This document shows positions 34,564 through 44,645 of a DNA stretch of 64,000 nucleotides, one piece after another. Origin of the DNA: Anaerolineae bacterium. GTDB taxonomy: Bacteria > Chloroflexota > Anaerolineae > Aggregatilineales > Phototrophicaceae. The stretch lies in the NCBI GenBank assembly GCA_022823945.1, contig JAJEBK010000009.1, positions 1 through 64,000 on the forward strand, given 5' to 3'. Under the pieces are notes generated by a model. That model was not told the origin of the DNA and did no database searches. It worked only from the letters and a program-made list of their open reading frames with translations. The position numbers were made by a program, and so were the translations under genes. Each line of letters opens with the position of its first letter. Positions within the stretch are counted from its first letter, which is position 1.

Positions 34564-35617
34564 TATCGGCATCCTGGGCGCAGGCGGGATTGCCGCGCTC
34601 AGCCACTTGCCAGAAATCGCCGAGGTCGCGGACCTGCGCGTTACGCACATCTGTGGGCGCACCGAAAGCCGCTTGCGTCTGCTCTGCGAGCGTTTTTGTG
34701 TGCCGCGCTATTCCACCAGCTGGAGCGACTTGCTTGACGACCCGGCGCTGGATGGTGTGATTGTCGCGCTGCCGCATCCGCTGCATGCCGAAGCCGGCCT
34801 GGCTGTGCTGGAACGTGGACTGCACCTGTTTCTGCAAAAGCCGCTGTGCACGACGCTCGAAGAAGCCGACCGGCTCGTGGCCGCCAGTGACATGCGCCCG
34901 GGCCAGGCCGTCTATTGTCGCCCCTCCTTCAGCGCGGTCGTTTATGAAATGCGCCGACAGCTGGCAGCGGGGGCGATCGGCACAGTCTCCGGCGCGCTGG
35001 CCCGTCACAGCCACGGCGGTCCTGAAGTCTATTATGCCGAAGTTAGCGACAGCTTCAACGAGCCGCGCGTCGAAGGCGACTTTTGGTTTTACGATGCGGA
35101 AAAGGCTGGCGGCGGCGCTTTGATTGATATGGGCGTCTATGCCATCGCCAACATCGTCGCGCTGCTGGGCAAGGTCGAAGCGGTCACCGCCCACATGAGC
35201 ACAGTCGCCAAGCCGACCAAGCTGGAAGATACCGCAACGGTCATCCTGGAAATGGCGAATGGCGCGCTGGCCACTGCCGAGACAGGCTGGTGCGATCCCG
35301 CGCGATCATCATACTTGCGCGTTCATGGCACAGCCGGCAAGCTGCATCAATCCGGAGACGAAATCGCCTACATCCGCCCTGGCTCTTACGAACGCGAGTG
35401 GGCAGCCCCGCTCATTGAACAGTTCACCCCGCCACCTGTGGTCAACCAGCATGCCGAGTGGCTGCGCTGCATGGAGCAGGGGGAACAACCGGCGCTATCC
35501 AACCTGTGGACAGCCCGACATATCACGGAAGTTATGCTGGCGGCTGTGGCATCCAACCAACAGGGCAGGCGCGTACCTGTGCAGTCGCGGCCTAGAGCGT
35601 TGCTTCCAGCGCCGTAA
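34556..35617 (+). CDS. Gfo/Idh/MocA family oxidoreductase
   Basis: NAD(P)-dependent sugar or cyclitol dehydrogenase, 353 residues. Rossmann start [15 protein letters not shown] (residues 8-22). The conserved Lys-Pro of the EKPL motif is present in [13 protein letters not shown] near 98. The C-terminal beta-sheet domain has [13 protein letters not shown] near 185, the family's GG-D-G-H-like segment, with Tyr in place of the common His. Start ATG at 34556 overlaps the isomerase stop by 8 bp. Its 3' end overlaps the convergent GH51 gene by 26 bp. Substrate not identifiable. Confidence 0.88.
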
Positions 35618-37100
35618 ACGACAGCGGCGGCAGGACCAACTGCGCCACCCCATCGGCGACTCGCGGCACGGGAATGGACCGCGTCATCACGCGATTTGGG
35701 TCTTGCCAACTGTTGTGCGCTTTGGGGTCGCTGCCCGCGAGCTGATGCGCGGCGCGAAAAGCCCGGGGCGTTTGATCCTGCCAGTGGATCTCCAGCGCCA
35801 GCTCGTCCCGAAGCGAGCGATTGACCAGGAAGAGGCTGTTCGTTCCGTTCGCTGCATCGTGCGCGGACGAGGCATCCAGCAGCGGCATATCGCCGAATTG
35901 CGCTGTTTCGTAGCGCGGCGATTCCACCAGGACATCCAATGAATTGCCCTTGGCCAGCCGGCTGAAATGCAGCAGCGGATAATAAATCGACTGTTTGAGC
36001 AGCACATCGCCGCGAGTGAGCAGCGGGGCGATGACATTGACGATCTGGGCGAGGCAGGCGATCTTCAGCACATCGGCTTTGCGCAAGAACACATTCAGCC
36101 AAGTAGCCACCACCAGCGCGTCTTCCAGGTTGTAAACTTCTTCGATCAAATGCGGCGCTTCTGTCCAGTCGCCGCGCATATCCGCCCTTTCGCGGGCTTT
36201 GTACCATACATTCCACTCGTCCCACGACAGGTAGACATCGCGCTTGGAGCGGGTCTTGGCTTTGACATAACGCAGGACGCCAGCCAGCGCATCGACAAAT
36301 TCTTCGAGATGCGCGCTAATCGCCAGGAAGCTGGGCGTGTCATCACTGGTATTCTCAGCGTAATAGTGCATGGAGTGGTAATCAACTTGCTCCCAGCACA
36401 GCTCGAGCGCGACCCGGTCCCACTCTGGATAGCTGGGCATGGCGGGACCCGAAGAGCCGCAGAGCACCAGCGAAATCGAGTCGTCGTGCAGGCGCATCAG
36501 CTTGGCGGCTTCGCGGGCTTTTTTGCCATAGTCGACAGCGTTCAAATGCCCGATCTGCCAGGGACCGTCCATCTCGTTGCCCAGGCACCAATATGTCACG
36601 CCATAGGGATCGGGATTGCCATTGGCGGCGCGCTTGTCGGCGTATTGGCTGCCGGTCGGCGCATTGCAATATTCGACCAGGTTGGCGGCATCTTGGATTG
36701 TGCCCGTGCCCATATTGACGCCCAACATCGGCTCTGTGCCGATCTCGCGGCAGAAGCTCAGGAATTCGTCTGTGCCAAACTGGTTGGTCTCGATCGACTG
36801 CCAAGCCAGTTCGCGCCGCCGCGGACGCTGCGCTCTTGGACCGATGCCATCTTCCCAGTGGTAGCCACTGAGGAAGTTGCCGCCCGGATAGCGCATGGAG
36901 CGAAAGTTCAATTCTCGCAGCGCCGCCAGCACATCGCGCCGCAATCCGTTCTCATCGGCCTGCGCCGAAGCGGGGTCGTAGATGCCTTCGTAGATGCACC
37001 TGCCCATGTGCTCGGCGAAGCCACTGAAGAGCAGGGGCGAAATCGGGCTGATGACGCGCTTGGCGTTGATGTGGATGCGGGCGGATTCTGATTGGCTCAT
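35592..37100 (-). CDS. abfA: GH51 alpha-L-arabinofuranosidase
   Basis: Retaining exo-enzyme removing alpha-L-arabinofuranosyl groups from arabinan, arabinoxylan or oligosaccharides. 502 residues, normal for intracellular GH51. Catalytic acid/base is Glu176 in [10 protein letters not shown] and nucleophile Glu295 in [17 protein letters not shown] (71-76) and the RYPG substrate loop are intact. No signal peptide. ATG at 37100 is chosen; the in-frame extension to 37148 would run into the permease gene. It is the last gene of the set 3 transport operon, so set 3 probably imports arabino-oligosaccharides. Together with GH127 it allows hydrolysis of both alpha and beta L-arabinofuranosides. Confidence 0.94.
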
Positions 37101-37137
37101 TGGTATGCTCTTCTCTCGATTTGGATATCTCTTGATT

Positions 37138-37983
37138 TTAACGCCCACCCATGCCGGTCAAGGTGATGCCCTGGATGATCTGGCGTTGGAAGATGATGTA
37201 GACAATCAGAATGGGAATGGAAGACAGCACCGCGCCCGACAATACCATCGGTCGGTATTGCCCGGCATAGGATGAATTCAATATCGCCAATCCCACTGGC
37301 AGCGTGCGCGTTTCCAGGCTGTTGGTGACGATAAATGGCCAGAATAAATCGTTGTAATGGAAGAGGAAGACAAATATGCCAAGCGCTGTCAAGGCATTGC
37401 GCGAGAGGGGCAGGATGACATGCCAAAAGCGCCCGAAATAACCAGCGCCATCCAGCACCGCCGCTTCTTCCAGGTCGGTCGGCACTTGGATGAAGAACTG
37501 CCGCAGCAAGAATACGCCGAAGACATTGGCCGCCCCCGGGAAGACCAGCGCATTGAAAGTATCCAGCCACTGCAAGTCGCGCATTAGCAAATAGTTGGGG
37601 ATCAGCGTAACTTGCGATGGGATCATGATCGTGATCAACAGGAAGCCGAAGAGCAGGTTGTTGCCGGGAAACTTCAGCCGCGCGAAAGCGAAGGCAGCCG
37701 GCGCGCACAGCAGCAGTACAGCAGCGGTATAGCCGGTCGCGGCGATCAGACTATTGCGCAACCACAAATCCAGCCGCAAATCCTGCTGAGTCAGCACGGC
37801 GTTGATGCTGGCCAGCGTCGGCTCGACAGGTATGATCTGTGGCGGCCAGCGGTTGACCTCCTGGTTGGTCATAAACGATTGCGACACGGCGATCAACATC
37901 GGGAAGACGACAAACAAGCCCAACAGGGTCAGAAACACATAGGTAATCGTGTGCTGCGGCAGAATCGACCGCTCGGGTTTCAT
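37138..37983 (-). CDS. Sugar ABC transporter permease (MalG/UgpE type, set 3)
   Basis: 281 residues, six membrane segments, EAA loop ([26 protein letters not shown]) and a C-terminal [13 protein letters not shown] end. AGGAG lies 7 bp before ATG at 37983, preferred over the upstream in-frame TTG at 38004, which would overlap the preceding gene. GH51 follows after 37 bp. Confidence 0.93.
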
Positions 37984-37993
37984 GACGCGACTC

Positions 37994-38917
37994 CTAGTAT
38001 TCAATGCGCCGGCTCAACACGAGGAACTGGACGCTGGTCAACGCCGCCATGATGACCGCGATGCAGACCGCGACCGCCGCGCCATAGCCCATGCGGAAGG
38101 CTGTCCAGGCGATCTGATACAAATAGAAGATCAGCGAATAGGATGAACGCCCGGGCCCCCCATTCGTCATGATAAACGGCTGGCCATATACCTGAAAATG
38201 TGAAATGACGCCAGTGACGGTGACGAACAGGATTGTCGGCCGCAGCAAAGGCAAGGTGATGTGCCAGAACAAATCTGCGCTGCTGCCACCATCAATGCGC
38301 GCCGCCTCATATAGCTGCTCGGGGATGCCCTGCAAGCCCGCGATGAATATCAACATGGGGAATCCAAAACCCCACCAGATCGATGTCAGGCTCAAAGACG
38401 GGATGACCAGCCCGGGGTCGCCCAACCAATTCACCGGTCGCGCGCCAACAAAGCTCAGGCCATAATTGACGATACCGAATTGCGTATTCAGCAGCCACAC
38501 CCAGATCAAGCCAACCGCCCCCACCGACAACAGGCTCGGCGTGTACAACAGGACGCGGAAGAAGTTCTGCCCGCGAATGGGGCGCGTCACCGCGACAGCC
38601 GCCGCCAGCGCCACGATTGTCGTACCGACGACTGTGAGCGCCGTGAAGACGATGGTGTTTTGCAGCGCGATCCACCAAACATTGTCGTTTATCAGTTCAA
38701 TGTAGTTCTCGATGCCGATGTAGGGGCGCGACGGTCGCAGGATATGCCAGTCATAAAAGCTCATGCGCACCGCTTCGACCACAGCGCGGACAACGAATAT
38801 CAAAAAGAAAACCATGAATGGCGCAAGAAAAGTATAGGCCGCCAAGATCTCGCGCGTTTTTAAGCTGATGGAGAAGCGGCTCGCTGCCGTGAGTCTGGCG
38901 CGCTGGTTTGCGCTCAT
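37994..38917 (-). CDS. Sugar ABC transporter permease (MalF/UgpA type, set 3)
   Basis: 307 residues, six membrane segments, EAA loop (LYEAARIDGGSSADLFWHITLPLLRP near 215-240). The hydrophilic N-terminus of about 28 residues is typical. AGGAA precedes ATG at 38917. Ten bp before the partner permease and 110 bp after the binding-protein gene, with a strong hairpin in that gap. Confidence 0.93.
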   Translation of the reverse strand: MSANQRARLTAASRFSISLKTREILAAYTFLAPFMVFFLIFVVRAVVEAVRMSFYDWHILRPSRPYIGIENYIELINDNVWWIALQNTIVFTALTVVGTTIVALAAAVAVTRPIRGQNFFRVLLYTPSLLSVGAVGLIWVWLLNTQFGIVNYGLSFVGARPVNWLGDPGLVIPSLSLTSIWWGFGFPMLIFIAGLQGIPEQLYEAARIDGGSSADLFWHITLPLLRPTILFVTVTGVISHFQVYGQPFIMTNGGPGRSSYSLIFYLYQIAWTAFRMGYGAAVAVCIAVIMAALTSVQFLVLSRRIEY

Positions 38918-38969
38918 GGGTTATTCCTGAGTTTTTACGATTTGTCGCTGGTCGATTGCGCAGCCAAGG

Positions 38970-38993
38970 GCGGGACAGAACGCTCTGCCCCGC
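38970..38993 (-). promoter_or_regulatory. Intercistronic hairpin, set 3
   Basis: In the minus-strand transcript GCGGGGCAGA, a 4-nt loop GCGT and TCTGTCCCGC give a 10-bp stem with one G.U pair. The strongest hairpin in the window; lies between the binding-protein stop and the first permease start. Confidence 0.65.
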
Positions 38994-39027
38994 CGAATTG
39001 ACAGCATTGCCTGTTGTGTCCAGGCGC

Positions 39028-40374
39028 TTACATCGCGCGGTCGAGCACCTGCTGCATGCGTTCGGCCGCGTCGTTGAGGGCATCTTCGACCGACTTCAGG
39101 TTGTTGAGCGCGGCATCCAGTTCAGGATCGAGCGCTGCGTACATTTCCTGGACAGCGGTGCTTTGGTAATCCAGGACGCCATAGTCGCTGAAGGTCTGTC
39201 CCAGCAGGATATTGGACGGATAGTTGACCGGGTCGAGCGCGGCTTGCGCAGACAGCAGCGCCGGCACTTGTCCAGAACCCGCCCAGGTTACCTGATTGGC
39301 GCTGATCCACTTCAGCAAGGTCTCTACCGCAGCGGCTTTCTCGGGCGTCGAGCTGGCTGGCAGCAAAAAGGTATGGATGCCGAACCAGGTGCCTGGCTGC
39401 TCGCCGAACTGCACTTGTGGCCAAGCCATGCCGTTGATGTCGGTCTGATCCACCGCGAAGTTGCGGAACCAGGTGCCGGTGGGGATAACAGCCACCGAAC
39501 CGCTGGCGAAGCCCTGCCAGGTATCGAATCCGGCTGGCGGTGGCGACACATTGTATTCGTAGACCAGGTCGACCGCCTGCTGCAGCGCGGCGATTCCTGC
39601 GTCCGAGTTGACGGTGATCTGTTCGTCGGCCGATACCATCTCGCCGCCATGCTGCGCCAGCGCGCTCAAGAAGTTGACGCGAGGCCATTCGCCCACAACA
39701 TAGCCCCACTGCGCGACATTCTCGCTGTCGAAGTCGGGGTCGGCGGCATTGTTGCCATTGACGTCCAGGGTCAACGCCTGCAGCAACGATACCCAGTCTT
39801 CATAGTTGTCGGGCGCGGTGGACGGGTCGGTGTCGATGCCGGCCGCATCAAACATGTCGGTATTGATCCACAAGCCGCGGCCATGATTGTCCAGCGGGAG
39901 ACCATAGGTTACGCCCTGATACTGCATGCCGCTGTAGGTGATCTCGGAGATGTCGGTTTCATCAAACCAGCCGCCGCCGCTTGTGTACCAAGGACCCAAG
40001 TCCATCACTACGCCGAAGCTGGCGAATTGCGGCACTTCCGAGGCGTGCATCAAGACCAGGTCGGGCGGTTGGTTGGCGACGAATGCCGCTTGCAGCTTGG
40101 CATAGAGGGTGTTCCAGGGGATGATCTCGCTGGTTACCTCAAATTCCGGATTTTCCATGGCAAACTGCGCCAGCATCTCGTTCATGGTAACGCCATCGGA
40201 GCCGGTCAAGCCATTCCAATAGGAAATCTTGGTTTCGCCACCGCCAAATTCGCCAACGATGGGCGTAGGCTCTGCTTCCGCCTCCTGCGCTACTATGCTT
40301 GTCGGAATGGACATGACCAACATCATGGCGACAAACAGCGCCAATGTGAACATTAAAGACAGTCGTTTGACCAT
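39028..40374 (-). CDS. Sugar ABC transporter substrate-binding protein (CUT1, set 3)
   Basis: 448-residue COG1653 protein. Sec signal of about 30 residues ending SIVAQ, then a short Glu/Pro-rich linker (EAEAEPTPIVGEF) before the fold begins at TKISYWNGLTG. Family landmarks include NTLYAKLQAAFVANQPPDLVLMH near residue 80 and VIPTGTWFRNFAV near 300. AGGGAGAAC precedes the ATG. No lipobox. First gene of the transporter/GH51 operon, whose promoter at 40498-40527 contains a G11 tract. Confidence 0.93.
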   Translation of the reverse strand: MVKRLSLMFTLALFVAMMLVMSIPTSIVAQEAEAEPTPIVGEFGGGETKISYWNGLTGSDGVTMNEMLAQFAMENPEFEVTSEIIPWNTLYAKLQAAFVANQPPDLVLMHASEVPQFASFGVVMDLGPWYTSGGGWFDETDISEITYSGMQYQGVTYGLPLDNHGRGLWINTDMFDAAGIDTDPSTAPDNYEDWVSLLQALTLDVNGNNAADPDFDSENVAQWGYVVGEWPRVNFLSALAQHGGEMVSADEQITVNSDAGIAALQQAVDLVYEYNVSPPPAGFDTWQGFASGSVAVIPTGTWFRNFAVDQTDINGMAWPQVQFGEQPGTWFGIHTFLLPASSTPEKAAAVETLLKWISANQVTWAGSGQVPALLSAQAALDPVNYPSNILLGQTFSDYGVLDYQSTAVQEMYAALDPELDAALNNLKSVEDALNDAAERMQQVLDRAM

Positions 40375-40497
40375 TGTTGCGTTCTCCCTTGAATTGCCTC
40401 AATTAACAAAATACGGCTGGTTCAGGTCTCTCTCATTGGCACCTTTCTCTTCTGCTCCACCGGGTTCATAGAATCGCGCTGGGCAACCAGCAGGCAG

Positions 40498-40527
40498 AGC
40501 ATACCCCCCCCCCCGCGAAGAAGTCAA
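40498..40527 (-). promoter_or_regulatory. Promoter with an 11-G tract in the spacer
   Basis: Minus strand: -35 TTGACT (bases 40522-40527) and -10 TATGCT (40498-40503), separated by exactly 18 bp, of which 11 are an unbroken G run (C run at 40504-40514 on the given strand). Start of transcription near 40490, leader about 115 nt. The tract is the longest homopolymer I saw in the window. Confidence 0.6.
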
Positions 40528-40601
40528 GCAATTCGCTAATTCAGTTTTGCGGGATTTGTATGCGCGCGCATTCCAAGTCGGGCTGCGTTCAATCGCCGCC
40601 G

Positions 40602-43064
40602 CTAAATATCCAGGACCGATGCCCGCCAGATGTCTCGATTGTATTCGGCGATCGTACGGTCGGACGAAAAGAAGCCCGAGCGCGCGGCATTCAGGATGGA
40701 CATAGTCGTCCAGCGCTCTTCGTCCGCGAAAGCCTCCGCCACTTGTCGCTGGCAATCGATATAACTGGCGAAGTCGGCGCAGAGCATGTATTCATCGTGA
40801 TGCAGCAGCGAATCGACGATCGGCTGGAAGAGCCCGGTATCGCCATGCGAGAACACGCCACCAGCGATCCAGTCGATGGCAGCGCGCAGATCGGCATTGG
40901 TCTCATAGATGCCGCGCGGGTCATAGCCTGCTTGACGAACCGCCTGGACTTCTTCGGTGGTCATGCCGAAGAGGAAGAAGTTGTCCGCGCCGACTCGCTC
41001 GCGGATTTCGATATTTGCGCCGTCCAGCGTGCCGATCGTCAATGCGCCATTGAGCGCGAACTTCATGTTGCCCGTGCCCGATGCTTCTTTGCCAGCCAGC
41101 GAAATCTGCTCGGATAGGTCGGCCGCCGGATAAACAAGCTGCCCGCAGGTCACATTGAAATTGGGGATGAAGACGACGCGCAGCCGTGTTGAACAGATCG
41201 GATCGCGGTTGACGACATCCGCCACGGAATTGATCAGCTTGATGATCAGCTTTGCCATGTGATAGCCGGGCGCGGCTTTGGCTCCAAAGACGAAGGTAGT
41301 CGGCGCGACATCGGCAGCGGCATCGCTCTTTAGCTGCTGATACAAATGGATAATGTGCAGCGTTTTCAGCAGCTGCCGTTTGTATTCGTGCAAGCGTTTG
41401 ACCATCACATCGAACATGGAGTCCAGGTCGACCGTCAAGCCGAGCAGCCCGTCGATCATGTCCGCCAGTTCGGCTTTGTTGGCGCGTTTGATCGCCCGCC
41501 AGTCCGCGCGAAATTGCGGGTCATCGACGAAAGTCTCCAGCTGCGCCAGTTCTTCGAGCTTGGTCAGCCAGCCCGGGCCGATTTTCCCGCTGATGAGCTC
41601 AGCCAATTGCGGATTCGCCAGCTTCATGAAGCGGCGCGGCGTCACGCCATTGGTCTTGTTGCCGAACTTGTGCGGATACATGGCGGCGAAATCGGGGAAA
41701 ACCCGCGATTGCAGCAAGTCCGATTGCAATTGGGCGACGCCATTGACGCTGTAGCTGCCAACGCAAGCCAGGTGGGCCATGCGCACCTGTTTTTCTGCGC
41801 CCTCTTCAATGATGGACATCCGCTGTACGCGCCCCGTGTCGTTGGGAAAAGTCATGCGCACATCTTCCAGAAAGCGATGATTGATCTCGTAGATGATCTC
41901 CAGATGCCGCGGCAAGCAATGCTCCATCAGCGAGATGGGCCATTTCTCCAGCGCTTCGGGCAAGAGCGTATGCTGGGTGGCGGCGAAGGCGCGCGTGGTG
42001 ATGTTCCAGGCGCGTTCCCAATCCAGCCGGTATTCGTCCACCAGCAGGCGCATGAATTCGGCGATGGCGATGACGGGATGCGAATCATTGAGATGGATGA
42101 CCGCCACATTGGGCAATTCTTCCCAGTCGGCATTCAGGATTCTGAAGCGCTTGATGATATTGTTGAGCGAGCAGGCCACGAAGAAGTATTGCTGCTTCAG
42201 GCGCAATTCCTTGCCCTGCGGCGTGTTATCGTTGGGGTAGAGCACTTTGGTGACATTTTCGCTGCTGGTCTTTTGCTCCACAGCGCGCGAATAATCGCCA
42301 ACATCAAAGAGCTGCAAGTCGAATTCCCGGGTGGCTCGCGCGCTCCACAGCCGCAGCATGTTGACGGTCTTGGTCTTGTAGCCCGGCACCAAAGTATGAT
42401 ACGGCTGTCCCATGATAGTCTGCGCGGGCTGCCAGCGGACACGGTACTTGCCATCGCTGTCGGTGTAGCTCTCCGTATAGCCGCCGAAGCCAACCTCGAC
42501 CATGTCGTCGGGTTGGGGGAATTCCCAGGGATTGCCGTAATACAGCCATTCATCCGGGCTTTCTACTTGCCAGCCATCGCGGAAGGACTGGCGAAATATG
42601 CCATATTCATAGCGGATGCCATAACCTACCGCCGGGATGTTCAATGTCGCCAGCGAGTCCATAAAACAAGCCGAGAGACGTCCCAGGCCGCCATTGCCCA
42701 AGCCCGGCTCGATATCCAGCGCGATCAGCTCGTCGAGGTCGATTTCGTGTTGGCGCATCGTCGCGCGCGCCAATTGGTCAGTCTCGGTGTAGAGCAGGTT
42801 TTTTTCCAACTGCGCGCCCAGCAGATATTCCGCAGACAGGTAATAGACGAACTTGGGGTTCTGGCGAAAATAGCAATCTACATTCTGCTGCCAGTAATAC
42901 ATCATGTAATCCCGCACCGTGATCGACAGCGCCGTATACAGATCATGCGAGGTGGCGGTGTAAATGGCTTGTCCGCGCGTGTAATACAAGTTGTCACGAA
43001 AAGCCTGGGCGAAGGCTTCCTGCGTGAGCGTAACGCCGGAAATGTTCTCGAAGTTCGCAATCAT
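40602..43064 (-). CDS. glgP: Glycogen/alpha-glucan phosphorylase
   Basis: Pyridoxal-phosphate enzyme releasing glucose-1-phosphate from storage glucan. 820 residues, the usual bacterial length. The PLP site [27 protein letters not shown] is intact with its Lys. Other conserved blocks: [23 protein letters not shown] near 112-134, [17 protein letters not shown] near 330, [11 protein letters not shown] near 480. AAGGGGG lies 4 bp before ATG at 43064; a longer in-frame start at 43271 would overlap the sulfatase gene and adds no conserved sequence. Transcribed alone, divergent from the sulfatase. No other glycogen gene is near. Confidence 0.97.
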
Positions 43065-43229
43065 GATTCCCCCTTGGGTGCGCGCCGGGTGAAACGCCGG
43101 CCAAATCTTCCCGGTTGCGCGGGTTGCTATGTACACTTGACCTGCGCACAATGATAATTGCGCGGATGGCATTGCGCCAATTTTGCCCGGCGCTTTGTGT
43201 TTTCTGCGCTGGACGAGACGGGAAGCCAC
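43065..43229. other. glgP/sulfatase divergent gap
   Basis: 165 bp. A weak minus-strand pair (TTATCA, 18 bp, TACATA) could drive glgP. For the sulfatase I see GATAAT at 43153-43158 without a well-spaced -35. No other structure of note. Confidence 0.3.
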
Positions 43230-44645
43230 ATGAAACGACCCAATATCCTCATACTCTACACAGACCAGCAACGTTGGGATGCTTTGGGTGCGTCTGGCAA
43301 CGGCGAGATCAAGACGCCGCGCCTCGATGATCTGGCGGCGCGCGGCACACTATTTTCGCAGCACTTCGTGCAAAATCCCGTCTGCATGCCCAGCCGCATC
43401 AGCATGCTTTCGGGCCAGTATCCATCGACCCTGGGCATCACCGATATGGGCGTGCCAGTCCCGGAGGAAATCGTCACCCTGCCGCACATGCTTGCGCAAT
43501 ACGGCTATCGCAGCGCCAATATCGGCAAGCTGCATTTTCTGCCTCATGCCAACCGCGACCACCGTCTGCCACATCCGCCTTACGGTTTCGACCATCTCGA
43601 GATCGCCGATGAGCCGGGAGTGTACGAAGATGCCTATCGCGCCTGGGTACGCCGACAGGCACCCGACCAAATGGACGGCATCAGCGCAGGTATTCCGCCG
43701 GCAGCGCGCATCTGGCAGCAGACCCTGGGCATAGATTATGGCGTCGTGCATCGCGGCGATCCGCAGGGTCGGTATGACTTCGACCGCGGCATCCCTTTCG
43801 CCGCCGCCGACCACTTGACGCACAGCGCATTCGTCGGTGAACAAACAGCCGAATTCATCAAAGCGGCTGGCGACCAGCCTTTCCTGTGCATCGCGGGATT
43901 CTATTCGCCGCACGCGCCCTGGATCGCGCCGCAAAAATACCTCGACCTGTATGACCCCGAGTCGCTGTCGCTGCCGCAGTTTCCGCCCCATATCGACTGT
44001 CAGCGACCCAGCGATGAAAGTGCGCCATTCTCCGATGCGCAACTGCGGCGGGCGAAGCAAGGCTATTACGCCGTGATCAGCGAAATGGATCAGGTTGTCG
44101 GACGCATCCTGGACGCGCTGGATGAGAGCGGCGCGCGCGAGAACACCATCATCGTTTTCACTTCGGATCATGGCGAATGGCTGGGCGACCACCTGCGTTA
44201 TGGCAAGGGCTATCCCGCCGATGACGCCGTCAGTCGTGTGCCGCTGATCATCGCCGCGCCGGGTGAGCAGGAATCTCAAGAGCGCAGGGAAATCGTGGAA
44301 GCGGTGGACATTGTGCCGACCCTGCTGGAGCTGGCTGGCATCCAGATACCGCCTTTTCTGCAAGGGGAGAGTCTCGCGCCGCTGTTGGCCGGGAGCGCGG
44401 AGCGAAACAAGGCATCAGCGCTCACCGAAGGCGCTGGCTGGAAGAGCCTGCGCAGCGAAAATTTTCGCTATTTGGCGCATGCCGATGGACGCGAGAACTT
44501 GTGGGACATGCGTGAGGATCCAGGTGCCTATCACGATGTGGCGGGCAGCGCTGACTACCAAGCCGCCCTGACGGAGTGTCGGCATCTGCTGCTGACTCGC
44601 CTGCTGGTGATGGAACGCCCCTTGACGCGTTCATGGATTTATTGA
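43230..44645 (+). CDS. Type I sulfatase (formylglycine-dependent), CMPSR site
   Basis: Hydrolyses a sulfate ester after conversion of Cys52 to formylglycine. 471 residues. The N-terminal metal site is [12 protein letters not shown] (Asp12, Gln13-type ligands), and the modification motif is CMPSR (52-56) followed by SMLSGQYPS. The second metal-site segment is [12 protein letters not shown] near 312-323. No signal peptide, so it should act in the cytoplasm, presumably on imported sulfated sugars. ATG at 43230 follows GGGAAG. No maturase gene (FGE or anSME) is in the window. It converges on the DapA-family gene with 20 bp between. Confidence 0.92.

Follow-up and report, generated by a model that had tools for sequence, protein, structure and literature searches.

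The minus strand at 40498..40527 of the window (the whole 64,000-nucleotide stretch of DNA analyzed here) carries a run of 11 G between a -35 and a -10 hexamer upstream of genes for arabinoside uptake, and this raises the question of whether expression of these genes is varied at random by slippage within their promoter. The analysis indicates that random slippage of this kind probably raises and lowers sugar uptake in this uncultured Anaerolineae bacterium. We favor, with reasonable confidence, a slippage-tuned graded promoter which confers phase variation on a sugar-uptake operon and which is one of a group of poly-G spacer promoters in the genus.

Promoter and operon architecture

The promoter claimed in the earlier note was confirmed in the sequence. 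Reading along the minus strand, the -35 hexamer TTGACT (40522..40527) is followed by an 18-bp spacer (40504..40521) consisting of TCTTCGC and the G11 tract, and then by the -10 hexamer TATGCT (40498..40503). The tract (40504..40514), which reads as 11 C on the plus strand and is predicted to be slippage-prone, provides all but one of the G residues that make up 12 of the 18 spacer bases. Both hexamers were also recovered by a sigma70-like consensus scan of 38900-41200, which returned three sites, each scoring 9/12, against a mean of 0.8 in shuffled sequences; only TTGACT-18-TATGCT is intergenic, with the other two located within the binding-protein gene. Judged by its motifs, this is a putative housekeeping-sigma-type promoter. 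The homopolymer lies between -35 and -10 as it does in spacer phase-variable promoters of the porA type, and at 18 bp the spacer is near enough to the 17-bp optimum that the gain or loss of one base should matter.

The tract is the sole C/G run of at least 7, or A/T run of at least 8, in the whole 64-kb window. The pattern G8 matched the window only within this tract, giving four overlapping matches, and since shuffled sequences gave a mean of 1.70 and reached four in 11 of 100 cases, the occurrence of a long G run is in itself only slightly unexpected given the composition of the window, and it is the position of the run that is unusual. Transcription is predicted, from the position of the -10 hexamer only, to start about 7 bp past it (40488..40492, minus strand), which would give a leader of approximately 116 nt (40375..40491) containing a likely ribosome site, AGGGAG, at 40384-40389; the distance from the end of the -10 to the ATG of the binding-protein gene is 123 bp. 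The leader had no match to an Rfam family and its folding was ordinary (z-score 0.87), and an RNA element in the leader is not supported.

The operon content given in the earlier note likewise held, with all genes encoded on the minus strand. The first gene (39028..40374) encodes a 448-aa ABC substrate-binding protein (SBP_bac_1, PF01547, E 1e-22), which by family would be exported and extracellular. It is followed by two ABC sugar permeases, UgpA/GlcT/MalF-like (37994..38917) and UgpE/GlcU/MalG-like (37138..38004), for both of which the model matches were below cut-offs, and by a GH51-type alpha-L-arabinofuranosidase (35592..37148; Alpha-L-AF_C, PF06964, E 2e-39), whose NCBIfam ArfA score of 621.8 bits fell just under the cut-off of 625. 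Upstream and co-directional is the glycogen/starch phosphorylase gene glgP (40602..43271, minus strand; PF00343, TIGR02093), which we regard as context outside the proposed switch and as a possible source of read-through.

Orthologous promoters in sibling genomes

When the own genome and 60 relatives were searched, close binding-protein orthologs were recovered in six other members of the genus, which, to judge by the isolate names, presumably lives in sponges. Binding-protein identity was 98% in G003, 92% in G027, 89% in G022, 88% in G025 and G013 and 87% in G017, and the gene order glgP, binding protein, permease, permease, GH51 (as far as the start of the GH51 gene) was kept in 6/6 siblings. 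The survey had one genome per species, and the comparison is therefore between species.

The variation in tract length that the earlier note had predicted for sibling genomes was present across these seven species, one genome each. While the own promoter has 11 G and an 18-bp spacer, the nearest sister, G003, has 8 G and 15 bp, G025 has 10 G and 17 bp, G017 has 9 G and 16 bp, and G013 has 9 G followed by A and 16 bp; G027 has an interrupted tract (GGGGAGGGG) and G022 no tract, each with a 16-bp spacer. Hexamers and an uninterrupted tract at the matching position were thus found in 5/7 orthologous promoters. The -35 was TTGACT in G003 and G027 and TTGCGA, TTGATA or TTGCAT in the other four siblings, and the -10 hexamers of the six were TATGCT, TATTCT, TAAAAT, TAAAAT, TATACT and TACACT.

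Between the own genome and G003, identity is complete over the 60 bp past the -10 and 96% over the 50 bp ahead of the -35, so that the tract is the part which has changed. Over 4,349 alignment columns these two genomes differ by 168 substitutions and three internal gaps, of which only the gap at the tract exceeds one base. In the other 20 of the 21 ortholog pairs, most flanking stretches were 13-66% identical in short global alignments, the exceptions being two stretches of G025 versus G017 at 86 and 77%. As the hexamers are kept while the flanks diverge, the promoter elements outlast their surroundings. The own genome contains 20 tracts of at least nine G. Four could be paired with G003, with lengths (own/G003) of 11/8, 11/14, 10/10 and 10/15; the other 16 are uninformative, since the comparison covered only the surroundings of listed G003 tracts with at least 8 G. 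The 10/10 pair is the promoter tract of a different gene set (set D, described below) and is of equal length in both genomes.

Poly-G spacer promoters across the genus

In 34 genus genomes, the pattern TTGA-gap-G7-TANNNT gave 15 matches at 13 distinct tracts versus 3 for reversed-pattern controls, and TTGC-gap-G7-TANNNT gave 19 matches versus 0, with three tracts common to the two lists. Among 64 distinct G7-TANNNT sites (from 69 places, leaving out four near contig ends and counting two identical G032 copies once), TTGA or TTGC was spaced 14-19 bp from the -10 hexamer in 23 cases, which involve 22 sites, and at other distances in 18 cases, 14 of them at the fifteen remaining spacings within 8-28 bp. 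An ABC binding protein was located downstream of 14/22 promoter-like sites. These binding proteins form five ortholog groups of one broad family, namely set A (the window), set B (L158 and others), set C (L163-L165), set E (L166, L174 and L210) and the single L169. Three of the 22 sites precede set D, a small secreted-looking protein for which neither Pfam nor NCBIfam gave a match (the L172 protein was scanned), and the remaining 5/22 precede something else, including two sites within long reading frames (L170 and L176) and one opposite such a frame (L168). The window promoter is one of a family of poly-G spacer promoters, and the finding is wider than a single case.

Several individual loci may be described here. 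Set D (L167, L172 and L173) has poly-G promoters of 13, 10 and 10 G ahead of a protein of approximately 210 aa. At L174 (G032:C14) the set-E binding-protein gene is tandemly duplicated together with its poly-G promoter, both copies having 8 G and identical 30-bp flanks. The set-B gene at L219 (G015:C33) has an in-frame TGA inside the match and may be inactive. A further binding-protein gene, L202, is preceded by a 14-G tract with no clear -35.

Other ABC binding-protein genes obtained in the same search showed no G7 run in the 300 bp upstream (0/43 distinct genes, from 52 loci after dropping eight without a BLAST segment and one duplicate), and a poly-G spacer as a general device for ABC binding proteins is therefore ruled out. 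An earlier count, of the DNA ahead of the match in all 52 loci, had found one G7 run, at L235, with no TANNNT after it. Similarly, 19 further set-C orthologs had no G7 run in 300 bp upstream. Missing mismatch repair as the cause of the tracts was rejected for MutS, which is encoded in 34/34 genus genomes.

Spacer length with and without a tract

The earlier note had proposed that the tract changes spacer length, and a comparison of tract-bearing with tract-free promoters is in line with this. In sets A, B, C and E, spacers without an uninterrupted G7 run were 16-17 bp in 19/19 promoters, whereas those with such a run were 15, 15, 15, 16, 16, 16, 16, 17, 18, 18, 18, 19, 19, 19 and 27 bp, that is, 16-17 bp in only 5/15 (Fisher 2e-5, a p-value which is only a guide, given the relatedness of the sequences and the choice of hexamers by eye). 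Where more than one pair was available, the one closest to 17 bp was used by the script, which favors 17. In set B the -10 was located 51-56 bp ahead of the start codon in 11/12 promoters, a near-constant position which leaves the choice of hexamer hardly free, and there 16-17 bp spacers were found in 6/6 promoters without a run versus 2/6 with one. In set C, the G008 spacer has 16 G and is 27 bp long, and by its length should be silent, while spacers of 18 and 15 bp were found in G017 and G013. Such a pattern would be expected if promoters lacking a tract were kept at the optimum and tracts drifted around it.

Left out of the spacer count were loci with an unclear -35 (set-E L278, L280, L281, L284 and L294, and L219), L282 (altered -10), L228 (gene in two pieces, no promoter recognized), L289 (which reads TTGCGC-17-TATGCT), L220, L261, L270 and L295 (without upstream DNA), L268 (match starting inside the gene) and the 19 further set-C loci lacking any G7 run; L226 was counted though its match begins within the gene.

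G tracts outside promoters and beyond the genus

G tracts as such were rejected as the signal, as TANNNT is missing after 16 of the 20 tracts with at least nine G in the own genome. A search of the 34 genus genomes for plain G8-TANNNT gave 60 matches versus 13 reversed controls; two repeated elements, which account for 11 and 7 of the 64 G7-TANNNT sites, inflate this count, and the case is not rested on it. The first element reads approximately TTAGAACATATATTC with 10-14 G and then TAATAT, TAAGAT or TAATGT, and was found at L183-L185, L193, L204-L209 and L215, four of these places being in G007 alone. It lacks a usual -35, is not a clear promoter, and may represent an extragenic element, mobile or repeated, that contains a slippery tract. 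In the second element (L187, L190, L191, L197-L199 and others, with its seven sites counted by pattern) a palindrome-like GTATAGATACAGTATGTATAC lies directly ahead of the run. At L178 (G030:C10), in a region covered by mechanical reading frames, a 32-G run precedes TATTCT, and this run may be an artefact of assembly.

Across the phylum, TTGA-gap-G7-TANNNT with spacers of 14-19 bp gave 32 sites in 28/400 genomes versus 9 reversed controls, and across the class, TTGAC-gap-G8-TANNNT gave 20 sites in 13/396 genomes versus 1. Sixteen of these 20 class sites lie outside the genus. Nine of the 16 precede a protein whose start resembles a signal peptide or membrane anchor by eye, and the other seven have no clear gene, a distant gene or an uncertain gene, or are within a reading frame. 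This list is a lead rather than a tally of working switches. In G042, a genome of the same order in 5 contigs, four near-identical TTGACAYTGTACG-G9/10-TAATAT promoters (L374, L380, L382 and L383, with 10, 9, 9 and 9 G) were observed, three of which precede large secreted-looking proteins, with PD40 repeats in the two scanned, and the fourth of which has no called gene; this set looks like a classic contingency gene family. L308 and L333 of G124 precede similar secreted-looking proteins and share a promoter core, with 10 and 12 G. In this genus, poly-G spacer promoters are located mainly ahead of genes for certain ABC binding proteins, and in other Anaerolineae often ahead of genes for secreted-looking proteins. 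Whether these promoters make up a general Anaerolineae contingency system, with random switching of individual ABC uptake systems here and of secreted-protein families elsewhere, we regard as evenly balanced; such a system would let a clonal population forage for different sugars, in a phase variation of nutrition rather than antigens.

Proposed mechanism and alternative explanations

In the mechanism that we favor, slipped-strand mispairing by the polymerase would add or remove G in the spacer tract, and each gain or loss would shift the distance between -35 and -10 around the 16-17 bp optimum. Transcription of the arabinoside-uptake operon would then rise or fall stepwise, in single cells and their descendants. 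The window copy, with 11 G (18 bp), is predicted to lie slightly over the optimum, a 10-G form (17 bp) is predicted to be strongest, and the 8-G form of the sister (15 bp) is predicted to be weak. The likely benefit would be bet-hedging among uptake systems. If a repeated set of slippage-tuned promoters does act on sugar uptake, it would be a case of random switching used for foraging in environmental or symbiotic Chloroflexota.

It is conceivable, though in our judgment unlikely, that the G-rich spacer end is instead a fixed feature of the promoter, either as a sequence read by polymerase or a regulator or through DNA stiffness, with the long runs being a harmless slippage by-product of GGG seeds and no switch having been selected. 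Short or interrupted G runs beside the -10 are indeed common in tract-free orthologs, as in G027 and in spacers ending in GGGGGGA, GGGGCGG, GAGGGGA or TTGGG, and both the own tracts that lack a following TANNNT and the 18/64 sites within repeated elements place long runs away from promoters or in repeats. However, a fixed feature would not account readily for the departure of tract spacers from the length held by tract-free orthologs, for the recurrence of runs ahead of binding proteins in five ortholog groups, or for their persistence despite MutS throughout the genus.

A slippage-tuned promoter would have little consequence if it were a minor one, with most expression of the operon coming from glgP read-through or an undetected promoter and tract length hardly mattering. 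Read-through could supply expression, as glgP is on the same strand, its stop codon is 74 bp ahead of the -35 and no terminator is predicted between them, and glgP is also upstream in every sibling. Yet the hexamers and a 15-18 bp spacer are kept in 7/7 orthologs despite the diverged flanks, which one would hardly expect of an idle promoter, and we consider this possibility quite improbable. Chance or an assembly artefact, such as poly-G from two-color sequencing or a collapsed repeat, is highly improbable: while the sources are metagenome assemblies and several surveyed G-tract places are at contig ends, an uninterrupted tract was found at the matching place in the own assembly and in jk18x44bins.10, jk18x8bins.27, jk18x27bins.46 and jk18x7bins.101 (the last four sharing one project, judged by their names), an interrupted one was found in SB0662_bin_10, the tracts lie inside long contigs with unique flanks, and reversed-pattern controls gave 0 and 1.

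Comparison with known systems

Most known examples of phase variation through simple repeats come from host-adapted pathogens and concern their antigens, and the Anaerolineae are a class rich in uncultured members. Among open-licence PMC papers, no title on phase variation or contingency loci in Chloroflexi or Anaerolineae was found, and the few papers containing both words dealt, by title, with other subjects. Within open-licence PMC titles, novelty appears to lie in the lineage and in the kind of gene, as the mechanism itself is already known. Sponge-associated Anaerolineae and Caldilineae are described as having many sugar ABC transporters, including those for arabinosaccharide, and their AraNPQ/MsmX arabinosaccharide uptake corresponds to the window in class, kind of transporter and substrate (PMC6306507). 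That text contains no word beginning with 'phase', and its passages on uptake make no mention of regulation.

In opc of Neisseria meningitidis, as in the window, there is a promoter homopolymer, and in opc it is described as setting the level of transcription (PMC7864442); the opc tract is poly-C over the -35 region, whereas the window tract is inside the spacer. In tp0126 of Treponema pallidum, poly-G lies between -35 and -10 as in the window, and transcription is reported to be best at a -35/-10 distance of 17 bp (PMC7864442). Unlike the window gene, tp0126 encodes an OmpW-like outer-membrane protein, and length variation within isolates is reported for such Treponema tracts.

The precedent named in the earlier note, porA of N. 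meningitidis, proved to be exact, with poly-G of approximately 9-11 inside the spacer and an 11-G form in strain 8047 which equals the window run; relative to 11 G, protein was reported to be 2-fold lower at 10 G and 13-fold lower at 9 G (PMC3639595). As the effects in porA and tp0126 are graded, graded volume control is likelier than the strict on/off expression which that note had also proposed. porA differs in being a pathogen's outer-membrane porin under antibody selection with proven switching, whereas the window gene encodes an ABC sugar-binding protein for which switching is predicted.
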